A DNA stretch of 21,959 nucleotides, taken from the IMG/VR virus record IMGVR_UViG_3300025736_000237, positions 1-21,959 of that record. One strand, given 5' to 3'. The stretch's first letter is position 1, and every line of letters begins with the position of its first letter. Origin of the DNA: a virus. Below the pieces are notes generated by a model that saw only the letters and a list, made by a program, of their open reading frames with translations, did not search any database and was not told the origin of the DNA. The position numbers and the translations under genes are program-made. Positions 7,311 through 17,948 of this stretch are shown piece after piece.

Positions 7311-7352
7311 CTTTGCAGCGCGGACTTTGCAGCGAGGTTGGACTTTGCAACG
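7311..7352 (-). repeat. Three short direct repeats beside the tRNA 3' end
   Basis: The 10-mer CTTTGCAGCG (plus strand) occurs at 7311-7320 and 7325-7334, with a one-base variant CTTTGCAACG at 7343-7352 that reaches the tRNA acceptor end. Spacings are 14 and 18 bp. No gene is seen between 7273 and 7350. The cluster could mark local slippage or a recombination site; no function is evident. Confidence 0.4.
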
Positions 7353-7441
7353 GGGTGGCAGGAATCAAACCTGCGACCTGCAGAGCAACCGGCGAACCCA
7401 CACAACCGGCTTCTACCGCTCTACCATTGAGCTACACCCCG
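7351..7441 (-). tRNA. tRNA-like gene with enlarged anticodon loop (identity undetermined)
   Basis: The minus strand folds as a tRNA everywhere except the anticodon loop. The 7-bp acceptor CGGGGTG/CACCCCG is perfect. Then come TA, the D arm GCTC-AATGGTA-GAGC, G26, a 5-bp anticodon stem GTAGA/TCTGC (one G-T pair), the variable loop AGGTC, and the T arm GCAGG-TTTGATT-CCTGC. CCA is not encoded. Between the anticodon stem halves there are 27 nt instead of 7. They contain an 8-nt direct repeat (GCCGGTTG, 17 nt apart) and can extend the stem with AGCCGG/CCGGTT. No normal T33-anticodon loop can be placed, so the amino acid cannot be assigned. The gene is a defective or remodelled tRNA, or one with an insertion. 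Its 5' end overlaps the stop codon of the gene ending at 7432. Confidence 0.65.
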
Positions 7442-8043: not shown

Positions 8044-11000
8044 TCACTTCAGCCCCATAGTTTGCTCAAACACTGTGCGCAGGTGCGGTGACAACATCTT
8101 AGAGCGATAGGTGCCGCGCTGCAATTCCACGAACGCCTCGGACAACGCTTCATCCCACGAACTTGAGGCATACGCACTGAATAGGTTCATCTGCTCTTTG
8201 GCAAAACGCTGCCACTGCGAGCTTACAGAACTGACGGGAATACCTGTCGGCATTTGCCACTCTATGCCATGCGCCGCTTCGTGGAGTGCTATGTCGGCAC
8301 TGCTACGGCAACTCGTGCCAGCCACAAACTTCTGCTTGGCAATCGCCAAGTCGATACTGCCGTCACTGGCGAACAGGCTTACCACGTCACCTGCCGCGTT
8401 CACTGCTTCAAGTTCTTCGGCTTTCTCGCCAAGGACGTATATCATATCTTCAAGGCCGGGCTTGCCAACCTCTCGCGGTCCTATCTGCATGGTGTGGGTA
8501 AGGATACGGCCCTCATCATCAACGATGTTTGCCGACAGCCGCCCACCGTGCCGCGACCACATTTCCACCTCGTCAATAACCACCGTCTGTCCGTTGGCCT
8601 CCAAGCGCCCCATTGCATGGGCCACTTCCTCCAGCCGATTCGCCTTGTCCTGCGCTGATACTTCCCACCCGTATTGCTCGAACCCGGCTTCGTCATACTT
8701 GACCGCCACGCCGCGTTCGGCAAACCACTTCTCTCCGTCTTCTGGCGTGGCGAAAGAGGGTGACGCACTCGGCGCAGCCGCAGGCGCGGGCGGCGCTATC
8801 GCTCCTCGGATCGGCGCGGCGCTTGTGCGCGCTGCCTCTGTCAAGGGCTGGTAACCTCCGAGCCACGGTTGCGCTGGCAGGTCTGTCTCGTCGTCGATAA
8901 CCGGCAACTCGTCGCACCGGCAGTTGCACACGTTTCCTGCGCTCGCCCCCGGATCGCCGGGGTGTTGCATGGCCTCGCCGCCAACGTCGAACGCGTCATC
9001 TATGCGCCGAACCTGTCCGTGCGCGGCGGCGTGGTCCGCGCGGGTCTCGCTATCCAGCAGCGTCAACCATTGCTTCTTCTCCACGCCATTCTGCACATAC
9101 GCTTCATGGCCCACGGTGCCCTGCGCGACGAGCGTTTCCGTCCGCGCGATGTTCTCCGCACGTCCAGCATACGTTCGCGGGAATATTTTGTCAATGCGTT
9201 TCGCGACTTCTCGCGGCCCCTGGCCCTCCGTGTAAAACTCCCGCGAGAGAGTATCGCGCAGGTTCTCGAGCATCGTCTGCGACACTTCGCCAGTGATCTT
9301 GACGCCACGCGCCTGCAACTCATTGAGGAGTTTCGGGTCGCGCAGGTTAAAGACGAAGGCCTCGCCCGCCGCCGCGTTCCACTCCTCGCCTCGTGCCAAG
9401 CGTTCGCGGAGGGTCTCGCCCTCGCGGTTTGCCACGGCCTCTGTGCGTCGCGCTGTGAACGGTGCCGAGAGCGCCGCAAGTATCGCATTCACTGCGCCCT
9501 GTCCGCCGATGTTCCCGGCCTTCAGCGTGAACTCGTCCAGCGTCTCGCGGAGGGCAACGGCGTCCGGCGGCACCTCGCGCCGCAGGGTCCGCGTCAGCGC
9601 CCTCTCACTTGGCGCGTAGTCCAGTGTCTCTAACCACCGCTTGATGTCCTTGTGCCACGGGCTTATCACCCGGCGCTGCAACGCCCTCGCGAACTTCACC
9701 TCCAGCGCATCGAGTTCCCGTCTCAGCTCAAAAGGGCGCACCGCCTCCTGGCGTCGCGCTTCCTGCGCGGACTCTTCGGTGGCTTCCTCTTCGTCGGGCG
9801 CGGGCGGGATTGCGGCGTCTGCCTCGGGCACGTCCACGCCGCCCTCGTCCTCGGCGGCCTTGCCTTCCATCTTTGTCTGCGGCGGGTACTGCTCCTCCAT
9901 CACCTCGGCAATGTTATTGGTGCCCAACGCCACGTAAGCTTGATAGCTCGCTTCCTGCTGCTCCACAATCCCTGCTGCTACTGCCGCAGGCAACGCCGTC
10001 AACAGCGTCGCGGTAGACTCCGGCGTGCGTGGCTGCGCAGGCGGCATGTTTATGTCAATCGCAGTGTCTACCTTCAGCGGCAAGCTCACGAACGGGGCGC
10101 GGGTCTCAGCACGGACGCGGCCAATCGCGAACTGGCAGAGGTCATTCCACGTCCCCCGATACATCGCCTGCCTGTCGTCGATGCGCCAGATAGCCGGGAG
10201 TTCCATTGCAGTTGCCGTTGCCAAGTTACCGGAGTTGCCCTGAATGGCGACCTTCCCGTTACGCCGGGTCACGAAGAATCCGGTCGGCACTTGATAGCAC
10301 CAGACGGTTCCCTGATATACCTCGCGGCTTATGTTGCGGGGAACTACGCCAGCTTCTCGACGCGTTGAGCCATTAATAGCCCAGATGCCATCAGCATGTT
10401 TTGCGATATTCGCTTGCCACCCCAACAATAACGCCGCCACTTGGAGCCCGTCAACGAGTTCCTTTGACATAGACTTGTAGCAGATATTGTTTCCGTTCTT
10501 GCCGTTCCTCGTGCCGTCCCCCTTTACTGCTGCGTCCCATAGGCGCTCCAACACACTGATAGGCCACAGCGCGCTCCCGTCTGGTAGCCGCTTCGTATAT
10601 GAACCAGTTCCGCATTGTTCGCGGAGCCACGTCCAGAGGCGCTTGTTCTGGAAGTTGAAGTTTATCACGCCGTTGCAGTCCAGTTCATGCACTGCCCACG
10701 GGAGGCGCTCAAGCAGAGCCCGAATATCATCAGCGTCCGCGCCGGGCTTCTGCGCGATGCTAATGCGGTAGAATATCCGCTTCTCGCGCTTGCTAGTGCG
10801 CTTGCGCAGGACGGTTCGGGGATCGCCATTCTTCTTCAACGGTCCCAGCGTACTTCCCTCAGAGACGAACCACCCGAGGAATGTTCCCACGTCTTCAGGC
10901 GATACCCCCTCAAACAGCGCCGCGCCCTCTGGGTCATCAGTAAATATCGTGGAGCCCTGCACCGCGCTATCAGGCGCAGTGCGGAATGACCACCCCGCAC

Positions 11001-12492
11001 TCCGCGAATCCAGCGTATTTGCAGGCGTGACATTGTACCCACGGTCGAGTATCTCCGCGCCGCCGTCTGCTATGCGCGGACGCCCCGCCTTTCCTTCGGG
11101 ACGAGCCCCCTCGGGCGGCAGGCGTTTTGACTGGCTGTTCGGGCGCGCAAGCATACGGTGGTCTTTTGTCACGGCAATATCCTGCGCCCGCGTCGTGATA
11201 TGGACGATCTCTTCGTCCACCTCAAACTCGTGAAGCTCAATGGGTTCCTGCCACTGAATTTGATGCTGCCCCGGATGGTAGCAGGCTATGCGCGTGCCGT
11301 CCTCCACGTCCTTGTAATTGCGCCAGCCGTCCTCCGTCAGCACTTCCGTATCCGCAGTGTAACAGGACGAGTCACCGTAGAAATGCTCGCCGAACCCGAA
11401 CGGGCGGATCGCCTCAAGCAGCGTCTCGCGCGAGGCCCCTGTCAAGTTCGTGCTGCCTCCGGTGCCGACGTTGACCGGCGTCGTCTTCACGTTCTGGTTC
11501 TCGGCCAGCACCGCCGCGTCGCCGGGAGGAGGCGTCTTCATCTGGTCTGCCATTGCCTTCAGCGTCGCCGCGCTCTTCGTCGTGACCTGCCGCTGCCAGG
11601 CGAACATCGCCAACGCCTTCGTGAGCGTCACGAGGCTACGCACTGACCGCGCGTGCGCCTTCGACCAGTCGCTCATACGGTGCGCCTCGGGGACGCCGCG
11701 CAAGCCGAGGGTGTTCGTCTTCACCTGGTATAGCGCCGCGTCCTCCTGCAAGTTAGTCCCCGCCTCTGCGAACAGCACCTCTGCCGCGTCGTCTTCGCGC
11801 TCCTCTGCCTCCATGAGCCACGGGGCATAGCGCCAATCGCGGTAGTACCAGACGACCGTCTCCGTCGCGGGCGTATACTGCCCCGAGCCGACGTTCAACA
11901 CCTGCGGGCGGAACTCCCGCCGATACATTACGGGCTTGCGGCGGTTCTCCGGGTGCGTTATCACCTGCGTGATCTCGCCCACCGCGAGGTCGGCGACCTT
12001 CACCTGGTCATCAGCGTCGCTGGTATGCAGTGAATACCACTTCTCGCCTTCGACTATGAGCGCGAGGTTCAGGAGTATCTGGGCCTCGCGACCGAAGACG
12101 CTCAGCTGATTATCCGGGTCCTCCCAGAAGCGCGTGACGACCTTCTCCACGCGGCTGTCCGTCGCGGTCGGAGTGCCAATGCCGCCGCCGAGCGCGCCCG
12201 ACTGGAGCAGCATCGCCGCCTGCCCGAGCGTGGGGTCATTCTCCCATAGCACGATGCAGGTGGAACGGATGTCTTCGAGGTCAGACGCGCTGATGTCCAT
12301 AGCGCCTGCACCACCACCGCCGGTCAGCGACAGCCAGCCCTCGCCCTCCGCGTCGAGTTCGCGCTTGAGGTTCGCGCTGACGGCCTCTGCCACGCGGGAG
12401 AGTTGCGCCTCCGCGCGGTAGTAAGCGTCGGAAGCGGCGCGTTCGGCGTCAGTGGGCTCGTGGACGGGCTTGCTACGGTCGAATATGCTCAT
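8044..12492 (-). CDS. Portal protein / intein / MuF head morphogenesis / metallopeptidase-like fusion
   Basis: The precursor is 1482 residues from ATG 12492 (TGAGGT Shine-Dalgarno; ATGA overlap with the preceding small gene). Residues 1-376 and about 754-950 are a phage portal protein; the join reads GDSS then SGNLATATAMELP, a typical portal motif. Residues 377-753 are an intein, listed separately, so the spliced product should be 1105 residues. Residues about 1070-1200 form the MuF-like domain (EFYTEGQGPREVAKRID, NIARTETLVAQGTVGHEAY, and the ending GNVCNCRCDELPV). After a Pro/Ala linker, a C-terminal domain carries HEAAH at 1404-1408 and a later WDEALSEAF with Glu1448 and Glu1452. That resembles a zincin metallopeptidase site. 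The portal starts head assembly and is the DNA entry channel. The MuF domain is usually a separate gene, so this fusion is unusual. Confidence 0.85.
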   Translation of the reverse strand: MSIFDRSKPVHEPTDAERAASDAYYRAEAQLSRVAEAVSANLKRELDAEGEGWLSLTGGGGAGAMDISASDLEDIRSTCIVLWENDPTLGQAAMLLQSGALGGGIGTPTATDSRVEKVVTRFWEDPDNQLSVFGREAQILLNLALIVEGEKWYSLHTSDADDQVKVADLAVGEITQVITHPENRRKPVMYRREFRPQVLNVGSGQYTPATETVVWYYRDWRYAPWLMEAEEREDDAAEVLFAEAGTNLQEDAALYQVKTNTLGLRGVPEAHRMSDWSKAHARSVRSLVTLTKALAMFAWQRQVTTKSAATLKAMADQMKTPPPGDAAVLAENQNVKTTPVNVGTGGSTNLTGASRETLLEAIRPFGFGEHFYGDSSCYTADTEVLTEDGWRNYKDVEDGTRIACYHPGQHQIQWQEPIELHEFEVDEEIVHITTRAQDIAVTKDHRMLARPNSQSKRLPPEGARPEGKAGRPRIADGGAEILDRGYNVTPANTLDSRSAGWSFRTAPDSAVQGSTIFTDDPEGAALFEGVSPEDVGTFLGWFVSEGSTLGPLKKNGDPRTVLRKRTSKREKRIFYRISIAQKPGADADDIRALLERLPWAVHELDCNGVINFNFQNKRLWTWLREQCGTGSYTKRLPDGSALWPISVLERLWDAAVKGDGTRNGKNGNNICYKSMSKELVDGLQVAALLLGWQANIAKHADGIWAINGSTRREAGVVPRNISREVYQGTVWCYQVPTGFFVTRRNGKVAIQGNSGNLATATAMELPAIWRIDDRQAMYRGTWNDLCQFAIGRVRAETRAPFVSLPLKVDTAIDINMPPAQPRTPESTATLLTALPAAVAAGIVEQQEASYQAYVALGTNNIAEVMEEQYPPQTKMEGKAAEDEGGVDVPEADAAIPPAPDEEEATEESAQEARRQEAVRPFELRRELDALEVKFARALQRRVISPWHKDIKRWLETLDYAPSERALTRTLRREVPPDAVALRETLDEFTLKAGNIGGQGAVNAILAALSAPFTARRTEAVANREGETLRERLARGEEWNAAAGEAFVFNLRDPKLLNELQARGVKITGEVSQTMLENLRDTLSREFYTEGQGPREVAKRIDKIFPRTYAGRAENIARTETLVAQGTVGHEAYVQNGVEKKQWLTLLDSETRADHAAAHGQVRRIDDAFDVGGEAMQHPGDPGASAGNVCNCRCDELPVIDDETDLPAQPWLGGYQPLTEAARTSAAPIRGAIAPPAPAAAPSASPSFATPEDGEKWFAERGVAVKYDEAGFEQYGWEVSAQDKANRLEEVAHAMGRLEANGQTVVIDEVEMWSRHGGRLSANIVDDEGRILTHTMQIGPREVGKPGLEDMIYVLGEKAEELEAVNAAGDVVSLFASDGSIDLAIAKQKFVAGTSCRSSADIALHEAAHGIEWQMPTGIPVSSVSSQWQRFAKEQMNLFSAYASSSWDEALSEAFVELQRGTYRSKMLSPHLRTVFEQTMGLK
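10234..11364 (-). other. Intein with LAGLIDADG homing endonuclease inside the portal protein
   Basis: This 377-residue insertion starts at Cys1 (CYTADTEVLTEDGWRNYKD, splicing block A). Block B has the TxxH motif (DIAVTKDHRML, intein residues about 62-72). Endonuclease motifs of LAGLIDADG type appear at residues 161-171 (TFLGWFVSEGS) and 271-284 (VLERLWDAAVKGDG). The C-terminal block is WCYQVPTGFFVTRRNGKV then IQGN, followed by Ser as the first C-extein residue. The penultimate residue is Gly rather than the usual His, which is known for some functional phage inteins. Removing it restores a continuous portal motif. The stretch looks more A/T-rich than its flanks, consistent with horizontal arrival. 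Both endonuclease acidic residues (Glu, Asp) are present, so it may still be active. Confidence 0.92.
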
Positions 12493-12653
12493 AGTAACCT
12501 CAATTCGCGCTCTGTGCGAGCGGCGAGACGGCGGAGCCGCCCCTTCTCTGCACGTTGCGAATCGCGCCATCCCCAGAGGTGACCTTCCTGCTTGTTCAGC
12601 AGAAACGGTGTGGGCCTGTCGGCGCGTGCGGGTGTACCGTTGTCTTCGCTCAT
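12489..12653 (-). CDS. 54-residue basic peptide, coupled to the portal gene
   Basis: The frame runs from ATG 12653 to a TGA that overlaps the portal ATG (ATGA). It has GTGAGG upstream and its own start overlaps the stop of the preceding 36-codon frame. The peptide starts MSEDNGTPARADRPTPFLLN and ends in an Arg-rich helix (AARTERELRLL). No family is recognised. The tight overlap on both sides supports translation. Confidence 0.5.
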   Translation of the reverse strand: MSEDNGTPARADRPTPFLLNKQEGHLWGWRDSQRAEKGRLRRLAARTERELRLL

Positions 12654-16399: not shown

Positions 16400-16432
16400 G
16401 CGCGGCGGTGCGATTGCGGGTTATGTGGAGCC

Positions 16433-16502
16433 CTTGCCGTGCCTCGCCGTGCCCAGCCGAACCACGCCGGACCGTGCCGTGCCTAACCGAGCCTGGCCGG
16501 GC
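16433..16502 (-). repeat. Pentanucleotide repeat array C (14 units)
   Basis: Fourteen consecutive 5-bp units in perfect register follow the pattern C-N-N-G-C on the plus strand (GCNNG on the minus strand), with the two N positions variable and a few degenerate units. The array lies between the conserved phage gene ending at 16515 and the promoter of the structural operon. It starts with CTTGC CGTGC and ends with CTGGC CGGGC, the same kind of ends as array B. The 183-bp stretch 16332-16514 holds only this array and the promoter. The 5-bp period does not match codons, so it is not protein-coding by design. Confidence 0.85.
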
Positions 16503-16514
16503 CATGAATAACAC

Positions 16515-17051
16515 TCACACCTCAATCCCCAGCCTGCGGAGCTTGTGCGTTTCCTTCTCCACCATCACCAGGAATGTCTCGCACTCGGGGAAGTCCTGCA
16601 ACTCCACGCGCATTGACAACACCCGCCGCCAGAGGTCGGCGATCCGGCGCTTGCGCATGTCCTCGTCGGTCATTACCTCCACGCGCGACGAGTAGCCCTC
16701 TTCGCCGCCACTCACAGGCACGAACGCACGGGGGACTGGCGCGACCACCGTCACCTCGACGGCCTTGTTCGGTTTGCTTTCGCGCACCTCTACTTCGACG
16801 ACGCCGACGCCTCGCAGGAGGTATCCGGCGCGCTTCGTGCGTGCCTCGTGCGCGGCCTTCTTGTCATTCCACTCGAAGAAGTCGTGCAGGGGGCTGGTCT
16901 TCGCTTGCGCTGTTGCGAGGATGGTCTTCGGGCTTAGCCCTTCTTCTGACTTGCGCAGGCGCTCAAACTCTCCTCCGAGCGTCCGCGCGTTTTCTTTGGT
17001 GAGAGCGAATCCTTCTCTGACGACGTATCGCAGTGCTGCGTCTGTGTTCAT
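16515..17051 (-). CDS. Conserved phage hypothetical protein between repeat arrays (178 aa)
   Basis: I start at ATG 17051, preceded by GGAGGTGCGCGAAAC; the frame stays open upstream through array A, but that extension is repeat-derived. The product begins MNTDAALRYVVREGFALTKE. Residues 28-61 read FERLRKSEEGLSPKTIL... and SPLHDFFEWNDKKAA, a combination I recognise from a widespread family of phage proteins of unknown function, continuing with a beta strand pair (LLRGVGVVEVEV), RAFVPVSGGEEGY and a C-terminal helical region beginning VMTDEDMRKRRIADLW. It has repeat arrays on both sides and follows the conserved gene at 17319-17948, suggesting a joint function. Confidence 0.75.
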   Translation of the reverse strand: MNTDAALRYVVREGFALTKENARTLGGEFERLRKSEEGLSPKTILATAQAKTSPLHDFFEWNDKKAAHEARTKRAGYLLRGVGVVEVEVRESKPNKAVEVTVVAPVPRAFVPVSGGEEGYSSRVEVMTDEDMRKRRIADLWRRVLSMRVELQDFPECETFLVMVEKETHKLRRLGIEV

Positions 17052-17073: not shown

Positions 17074-17086
17074 TTAGATTGTGTGT
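17074..17086 (-). repeat. Array-flanking box, copy A
   Basis: The 13-mer TTAGATTGTGTGT (plus strand) occurs here and again at 17188-17200. Each copy ends exactly 4 bp before the first unit of a pentanucleotide array. On the transcribed minus strand it forms ACACACAATCTAA, just past the array. This copy lies about 23 bp before the start codon at 17051. Confidence 0.75.
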
Positions 17087-17090
17087 GTTC

Positions 17091-17155
17091 CTTGCCTCGC
17101 CAAACCCGGCCACACCTAACCTCACCCTGCCGTGCCACGCCTCGCCAGGCCAAGC
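17091..17155 (-). repeat. Pentanucleotide repeat array A (13 units)
   Basis: Thirteen 5-bp units follow C-N-N-G-C on the plus strand, beginning CTTGC CTCGC and ending CAGGC CAAGC, with a 14th degenerate unit (CTCGG). Several units are C-N-N-A-C (CAAAC, CACAC, CTAAC, CTCAC), so this is the most degenerate array. It is separated from array B by about 32 bp of unique sequence plus the second 13-mer box. Confidence 0.82.
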
Positions 17156-17187
17156 CTCGGAACATCGCTTCAAACCGTTATCCCCAG

Positions 17188-17200
17188 TTAGATTGTGTGT
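17188..17200 (-). repeat. Array-flanking box, copy B
   Basis: A second exact copy of TTAGATTGTGTGT (plus strand) stands 4 bp before the first unit of array B, the same spacing as at array A. The repetition of box, spacer length and array makes each box-array pair a unit. Confidence 0.75.
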
Positions 17201-17204
17201 TACC

Positions 17205-17304
17205 CTCGCATTGCCTCGCCAAGCCGAACCCAGCCCAGCCGTGCCATGCCCTGCCCAGCCCAGCCGCACCAAGCCAAGCCCGGCCACGTCGTGCCTCGCC
17301 GGGC
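17205..17304 (-). repeat. Pentanucleotide repeat array B (20 units)
   Basis: Exactly twenty 5-bp units are in unbroken register, 16 of them perfect C-N-N-G-C on the plus strand (G-C-N-N-G on the transcribed strand). The exceptions are ATTGC, CGAAC, CGCAC and CACGT. Dinucleotides at the variable positions differ from unit to unit (TC, AA, CA, GT, AT, CT, CG and others). The array starts 15 bp after the stop codon of the gene at 17319-17948. There is no protein-coding gene in 17052-17318. Confidence 0.88.
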
Positions 17305-17318
17305 CGTGTGACACCTCA

Positions 17319-17948
17319 CTACAAACCGACTACGTGGAAACTGCCGAACGGGCCGCCCTTCTGCTGGCGGTAATCGCCGATACCGACGCCGCCACCCGCT
17401 TCGTGCAGGCAGGCTATCACGTCCTCTTCGCGCAGGTGTTCCTTGTTGAACTGCATCGGGATGACCGCAGTCCAGCCACCGGCGAACAACGGACGCGACC
17501 GCCAGATTTGCGCGCTGCGCTGGATTGTCACCGTCCGCAAGTCAACAACCCACGGCTCATCCTTGGTGGTGATGATCTCGCCGCCCATGACGCCGTGCGT
17601 GGTTATTGCGCCGTTCGGCACGATGGGGATAAGTCCGTCGGGGGTGAAGTCCATCCGCAACCCCTGCCGAATGGCGTTCTTGCTGTCGTTGCTGGAGAGG
17701 GTCTTCGTCCAGGTCATGATCGCCTGCCGGAAGCCAATGGCCGGGAATCCATACTCGGCGTCGTCACGGGACGGGTCAAGGACGTAAAGCCCCTGACGCG
17801 CCTCTTCGATGTAGTATTCGTCCTGCGGGTCCTTGGGGACTTTCAACGCGACGCGGGGGCGACGGTGCATCAGTAAGCCGGGCGGCAACCCTTCGATTGG
17901 GACTGCGACCGGTTCCCACTGTGAGGCTTTGATCATGAGCTTTGCCAT
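17319..17948 (-). CDS. Conserved phage hypothetical protein with glycine-rich C-terminal loop (209 aa)
   Basis: ATG 17948 has AAGGGG upstream within the AAGCCGCAAAGGA leader, and a promoter lies at 18005-18034. The product begins MAKLMIKASQWEPVAVPIEG. It contains DAEYGFPAIGFRQAIMTW, then a beta segment VDLRTVTIQRSAQIWRSRP with strand WTAVIPMQFNKEHL, and finishes with HEAGGGVGIGDYRQQKGG followed by FGSFHVV (residues 182-207). I recognise this as a family of phage proteins of unknown function whose ends read like GIGEWRPEKGGxFG. A beta-helix-beta unit with a Gly-rich loop recalls RRM/RAMP-type RNA-binding folds, but that is inference. It is immediately followed by the pentanucleotide arrays. 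Confidence 0.78.
   Translation of the reverse strand: MAKLMIKASQWEPVAVPIEGLPPGLLMHRRPRVALKVPKDPQDEYYIEEARQGLYVLDPSRDDAEYGFPAIGFRQAIMTWTKTLSSNDSKNAIRQGLRMDFTPDGLIPIVPNGAITTHGVMGGEIITTKDEPWVVDLRTVTIQRSAQIWRSRPLFAGGWTAVIPMQFNKEHLREEDVIACLHEAGGGVGIGDYRQQKGGPFGSFHVVGL

Follow-up and report, generated by a model that had tools for sequence, protein, structure and literature searches.

GGY-NN arrays beside a predicted RAMP protein gene in a phage contig point to a divergent member of the VIPR family

The DNA stretch studied here (the window) is a virus record of 21,959 bases from IMG/VR. Its genes lie on the - strand, the coding strand here. Between the genes of this phage contig, three arrays hold a 5-nt register. 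Read on the - strand (the mRNA strand), each unit consists of GG(C/T) followed by two free bases (GGY-NN), and most units are GGC rather than GGT; the C-NN-G-C pattern seen on the + strand is the identical register. Putative vrRNA array 1 (17203 to 17305 or 17308, - strand) contains about 20-21 units and begins ~13 nt past the stop codon of the gene at 17319-17948. Putative vrRNA array 2 (17089-17158, - strand) contains 13-14 units. Putative vrRNA array 3 (16431-16505, - strand) contains 14-15 units and begins ~10 nt past the stop codon of the gene at 16515-17051. Behind arrays 1 and 2, the same 13-nt 3' tail, ACACACAATCTAA, is found at 17188-17200 and 17074-17086, respectively (- strand); it shows no strong structure, and the tail of array 3 differs from it. 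A preliminary description of this DNA had the arrays bracketing both genes. On the - strand arrays do follow each gene, but none is found upstream of 17319-17948. The arrays themselves lie upstream of a DUF2280/phrog_546 gene and of the large terminase gene.

The three arrays score 33.5, 23.2 and 19.5, respectively. When the whole window was shuffled 200 times with its dinucleotides preserved, the highest score was 9.2, and the next-best site elsewhere in the window reaches 7.5. The 5-nt register noticed in the preliminary description is thus borne out. The array regions do not stand out in RNA folding (z -1.25, -1.46 and +1.22). In Rfam, the only match in the window is a tRNA, and the surroundings of the arrays in 16 loci match no known family. 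Elsewhere in the window, a tRNA-Arg (CCG) is found at 7350-7441 (- strand) amid head-region genes, and a 1508-aa open frame at 8044-12570 (- strand) looks by eye like a portal-like protein with an intein and fused further head domains.

The gene at 17319-17948 (- strand) encodes a 209-aa protein that matches phrog_4652 in a PHROG search (7.6e-11), as do 44 of the 46 members of its family; the PHROG function label is "unknown". Using the family profile, the sole significant solved structure is PDB 36pp, "SUSP1 Vipr protein" (E 1.9e-38). When the window protein is left out of the profile, it is still recovered at 4.1e-19, and SUSP1 Vipr is recovered at 3.4e-39; the gene is named vipr hereafter. 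The AlphaFold2 prediction for the window protein has a pLDDT of 91.9. Its best PDB matches are to Csm3 (Z 11.3 over 160 residues), and the PDB matches listed are CRISPR RAMPs (Csm3, Cmr, type VII, gRAMP/Cas7-11); Foldseek concurs. A GxGDxRP...GxF motif, forming a glycine-rich loop, is conserved near the C terminus. The model thus predicts a small RNA-binding RAMP with a Csm3/Cas7 fold. Scans with single proteins gave one relative only in each case. The nearest IMG/VR relative of the window Vipr in a protein scan is locus L001 (31% identity), where no array exceeds the shuffles in the available DNA around vipr. BLAST of the window DNA against phages gave no match. In a quick tree, a long branch leads to the window Vipr, close to the base of the clade whose loci carry the second gene family (B clade); because of this long branch, its exact place is unsure.

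The VIPR system was described in a preprint (bioRxiv 2026.04.26.720920; PMC13142463; versions of April and June 2026) and studied in Escherichia phage SUSP1 (PMC13142463; PDB 36pp). In this system, a small RAMP of about 20 kDa, Vipr, coats vrRNAs in which 9-16 GGY/NN repeats precede a 3' tail, the NN pairs read a DNA target with one base skipped, and competing phages and prophages are repressed (PMC13142463). Accessory vap genes (vap1-6) accompany vipr and seven types are distinguished; the arrays can be staggered, giving overlapping vrRNAs, or interspersed with hammerhead ribozymes (PMC13142463). The RNA-protein complex, the 1-nt skip rule and repression were demonstrated for other members than the present one (PMC13142463). 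VIPR has been proposed as the forerunner of CRISPR. The statement in the preliminary description that no system with this layout had been described is thus overtaken by the April 2026 preprint. Its suggestion, in which a protein that oligomerises binds a transcript at every 5 nt and the variable pairs provide the specificity, is in line with published VIPR and with the predicted RAMP/Cas7 fold.

The gene at 16515-17051 (- strand) encodes a 178-aa protein of phrog_15946, also a PHROG family of unknown function (family B), so that both genes do belong, as had been claimed, to phage families without assigned function. A family-B profile made without the window protein recovers it at 4.4e-23. Family B is always found with vipr and in the same direction (26 of 26 loci; profile search, 122 loci listed). 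When loci of the B type supplied the queries, searches with Vipr and with family B each gave 33 phage records, divided alike among organisms (27 Mycobacterium, 5 Gordonia and 1 cyanophage); tblastn of the window family-B protein against phages gave no match. A vap1-like profile recovers SUSP1 agp038 and not the 16515-17051 gene, and the family-B profile does not recover agp038; judged from these profiles, family B is a different family from SUSP1 vap1. It is a lineage-specific accessory, known only beside vipr among the loci listed, and probably the vap of this VIPR lineage. The family-B model (pLDDT 85.2) gave nothing below E 2 in a fold search; no solved fold was matched, which does not establish a new fold. 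None of the 122 loci listed combines accessories from more than one of the families B, vap1-like and ParB-like, and accessory types cluster on the quick Vipr tree. A ParB-like protein, possibly one of the published DNA-binding vaps, adjoins vipr or arrays at L042, L049, L075, L105, L112 and L266, where it takes the place of family B or vap1.

The association of arrays with Vipr was examined in both directions. Eight exact GCCNN units, used to scan IMG/VR with no protein input, returned at least 120 stretches. Among the matches listed, GGC lies on the sense strand in 151 cases versus 7 antisense, with the arrays between codirectional genes, and the unit make-up is G.97, G.96 and C.89/T.07, with a uniform second N. 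As these loci were chosen by GGC, only the strand bias and the composition of NN count as free observations. The gene directly upstream of the arrays repeatedly belongs to one family, which includes window 17319-17948, and a second recurrent family includes window 16515-17051. A profile search over all open frames found vipr in 86 of the 122 listed loci fetched by the DNA pattern alone; many of the loci lacking it are short or cut pieces. The arrays mostly begin just past stop codons. Starting from protein similarity only, 15 of 16 loci have a sense-strand array near vipr that scores above every shuffle, the exception being L001. The 15 named phages are SUSP1, UmaThurman, Pipp, ODay, Ecliptus, Donkeykong, Saal, Gorge, Cy-LDV1, LittleE, prophiBWHA-1, Medea1, LESphi2, BPS15Q2 and phiHSIC, the array of the latter being the weakest. 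The array scoring used here also detects GGY-NN arrays around the vipr gene of SUSP1, the published system. Homologues of both window proteins thus carry period-5 arrays, rather than mostly lacking them.

In bacterial genomes, a scan with ten GGCNN units returned mostly low-diversity or coding repeats. Of the 19 bacterial genomes or MAGs from the array scan that were searched, 7 have variable intergenic arrays; vipr is present in 5 of these 7 and in none of the 12 others. Across 369 genomes of the class to which the cellular genome G001 belongs, phrog_4652 matched G001 alone; thus, cellular genomes give no larger array-independent sample.

Clusters contain from about 9 to more than 100 units, in blocks of 8-14 linked via 4-nt units. 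In 31 of 34 family-B loci, 4-nt units, often GGCA, connect guide blocks of about 8-14 units, in keeping with the staggered arrays of the preprint; such joints are absent from the window, L089 and L091. Very large clusters are seen at L064 (1.6 kb, 34 guide blocks), L008 (140 units) and L035 (more than 1 kb). The mycobacteriophages Donkeykong and Saal have Vipr proteins that are 98.8% identical (245/248), yet in several whole guide blocks they differ at NN, with GGY retained. This is expected if NN carries information. The other possibility raised in the preliminary description, that the variable pairs are under structural selection only, is unsupported, because the folding of the window arrays is unremarkable and because NN differs with GGY kept between these two phages.

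Two further features of such arrays were observed. Several annotated "hypothetical proteins" are wholly or partly translations of vrRNA arrays: UmaThurman gp40 (L243, 3631-3954), Pipp gp43 (L285, 3069-3338) and the N-terminal part of Trine gp40 (L292, 3091-3894). Moreover, tRNA-like T-arms (5-bp stem, TTCRANY loop) are found between or behind GGY arrays at L287 (Mycobacterium phage LittleE, 2259-3875), L005 (3801), L020, L094, L108/L292 (Trine) and L288, many of them inside an acceptor-like stem at an 8-13-nt gap. On the sense strand, 17 T-arms were counted in 71 kb near arrays versus 10 in 807 kb elsewhere, Trine and L108 being the same phage in this count; the antisense strand gave none. An enclosing stem of at least 6 bp is present in 8 of 15 cases near arrays and in 0 of 9 far from them. 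These tRNA-like tails, of which there is no mention in the main text of PMC13142463, suggest that some vrRNAs are matured by tRNA enzymes (RNase P/Z).

The window shares with SUSP1 a homologous small RAMP, sense-strand GGY/NN arrays close to vipr, a small accessory gene and a phage location. It differs in its accessory, which is family B and not vap1, and in units that are mostly GGC and not GGT; type II (SUSP1-like) loci have the vap1 accessory that a profile search did not recover in the window. Arrays 2 and 3 are within the published range of vrRNA lengths, whereas array 1 exceeds it. By joining vipr, family B and GGY-NN arrays, the window resembles the accessory-B loci of the Gordonia phages UmaThurman, Pipp, ODay and Ecliptus, of the Mycobacterium phages Donkeykong, Saal and Gorge and of Cyanophage Cy-LDV1, but its guides are unstaggered, unlike those of most such loci. 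The window is a divergent new member of VIPR, a known but very recently described system. That it represents a lineage outside the seven published types, namely an early accessory-B branch whose guides are separate and unstaggered, with 20-21 units in one of them, and whose accessory has no matched solved fold, is conceivable but rather unlikely.

Other RNA-guided systems offer partial parallels. As in class 1 CRISPR-Cas (Csm3/Cas7), the modelled Vipr has a RAMP fold with a glycine-rich loop; a row of such proteins on a guide RNA is established for class 1 CRISPR-Cas and would also form in the window system. However, the window lacks long identical repeats and unique long spacers: its units are of 5 nt with two free positions, the period is 5 nt instead of 6 nt, and the guide information is non-contiguous. 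TIGR-Tas (PMC12045711) likewise uses phage-borne short-guide arrays for RNA-guided DNA recognition, but its guide-binding domain, found starting from Cas9, appears to be a different one and not a RAMP, and its array layout differs.

Could the arrays have a function without guide information? Leader RNA sites for a ring- or filament-forming operon regulator, as with TRAP on NAG-NN, would account for a period of 5 nt in which three positions are fixed and two are free, the NN being devoid of information. Yet the fixed triplet is GGY and not NAG, Vipr is modelled as a RAMP and not as a TRAP ring, and most arrays begin just past stop codons. Unit numbers from ~9 to over 100 per cluster, in 8-14-unit blocks with 4-nt joints, also disagree with such a leader, as do whole-block NN differences between near-identical phages and the fact that the NN of the published homologue reads DNA (PMC13142463). 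We consider this explanation highly improbable. A drifting microsatellite, or a two-layer G-quadruplex tract without guide function, is more improbable still. A GG every 5 nt could indeed make two-tier quadruplexes, but these do not need the pyrimidine at position 3; a drifting repeat would decay evenly, whereas GGY is kept while NN is near random, and the tight linkage to one protein family is foreign to both. The position of the window arrays upstream of the DUF2280/phrog_546 and large terminase genes brings to mind a DNA-level element, such as a packaging (pac) site, a partition site or protein-binding iterons. However, elsewhere the arrays track vipr, whether beside a DNA ligase gene, in the early region or among tail genes, and the bias of 151:7 towards the gene-sense strand (among the matches listed) is not expected for such an element. 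Its chances appear close to nil. A coding repeat was also considered for the arrays and dropped.

Overall, the window very probably holds a VIPR locus, in which the arrays would be guide RNAs coated by Vipr, with NN reading DNA and causing repression. This view draws on the arrays, on protein homology and fold, on the conserved neighbourhood and on the mutual prediction of arrays and Vipr in independent samples; expression, the ratio of one subunit per 5-nt unit, targeting and purpose are what we infer from it for this phage. It can be proposed that transcription from the - strand turns the three GGY-NN arrays into vrRNAs, on which copies of the 209-aa Vipr would align, one per 5-nt unit, holding GGY and leaving NN exposed. 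The row of NN pairs would then read a double-stranded DNA target in which one unread base lies between successive pairs (1-nt skip). Target binding would repress transcription there, the target being most likely a competing phage, a prophage or a satellite, and the 178-aa family-B protein would act as the accessory (vap) of this lineage. Five scans of IMG/VR for eight consecutive NN pairs at a 1-nt skip, using the three guides, revealed no natural target; in the hits, the remaining NN pairs match at about chance level. Besides this, the points that weigh against a VIPR locus are the length of array 1, the shortness of the shared tail and its absence behind array 3, the long branch of the window Vipr and the missing array at L001.

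The interpretation given in the preliminary description is thus partly supported, and its mechanism was close to right. The window locus is an independent example of VIPR, found from raw sequence alone, and extends the family along a long branch. It also gives a working hypothesis for phrog_4652 and phrog_15946, two families labelled as of unknown function. More generally, current phage annotation overlooks VIPR: in many named phages its genes are labelled as encoding hypothetical proteins, and some such proteins are annotated over the guide arrays themselves.
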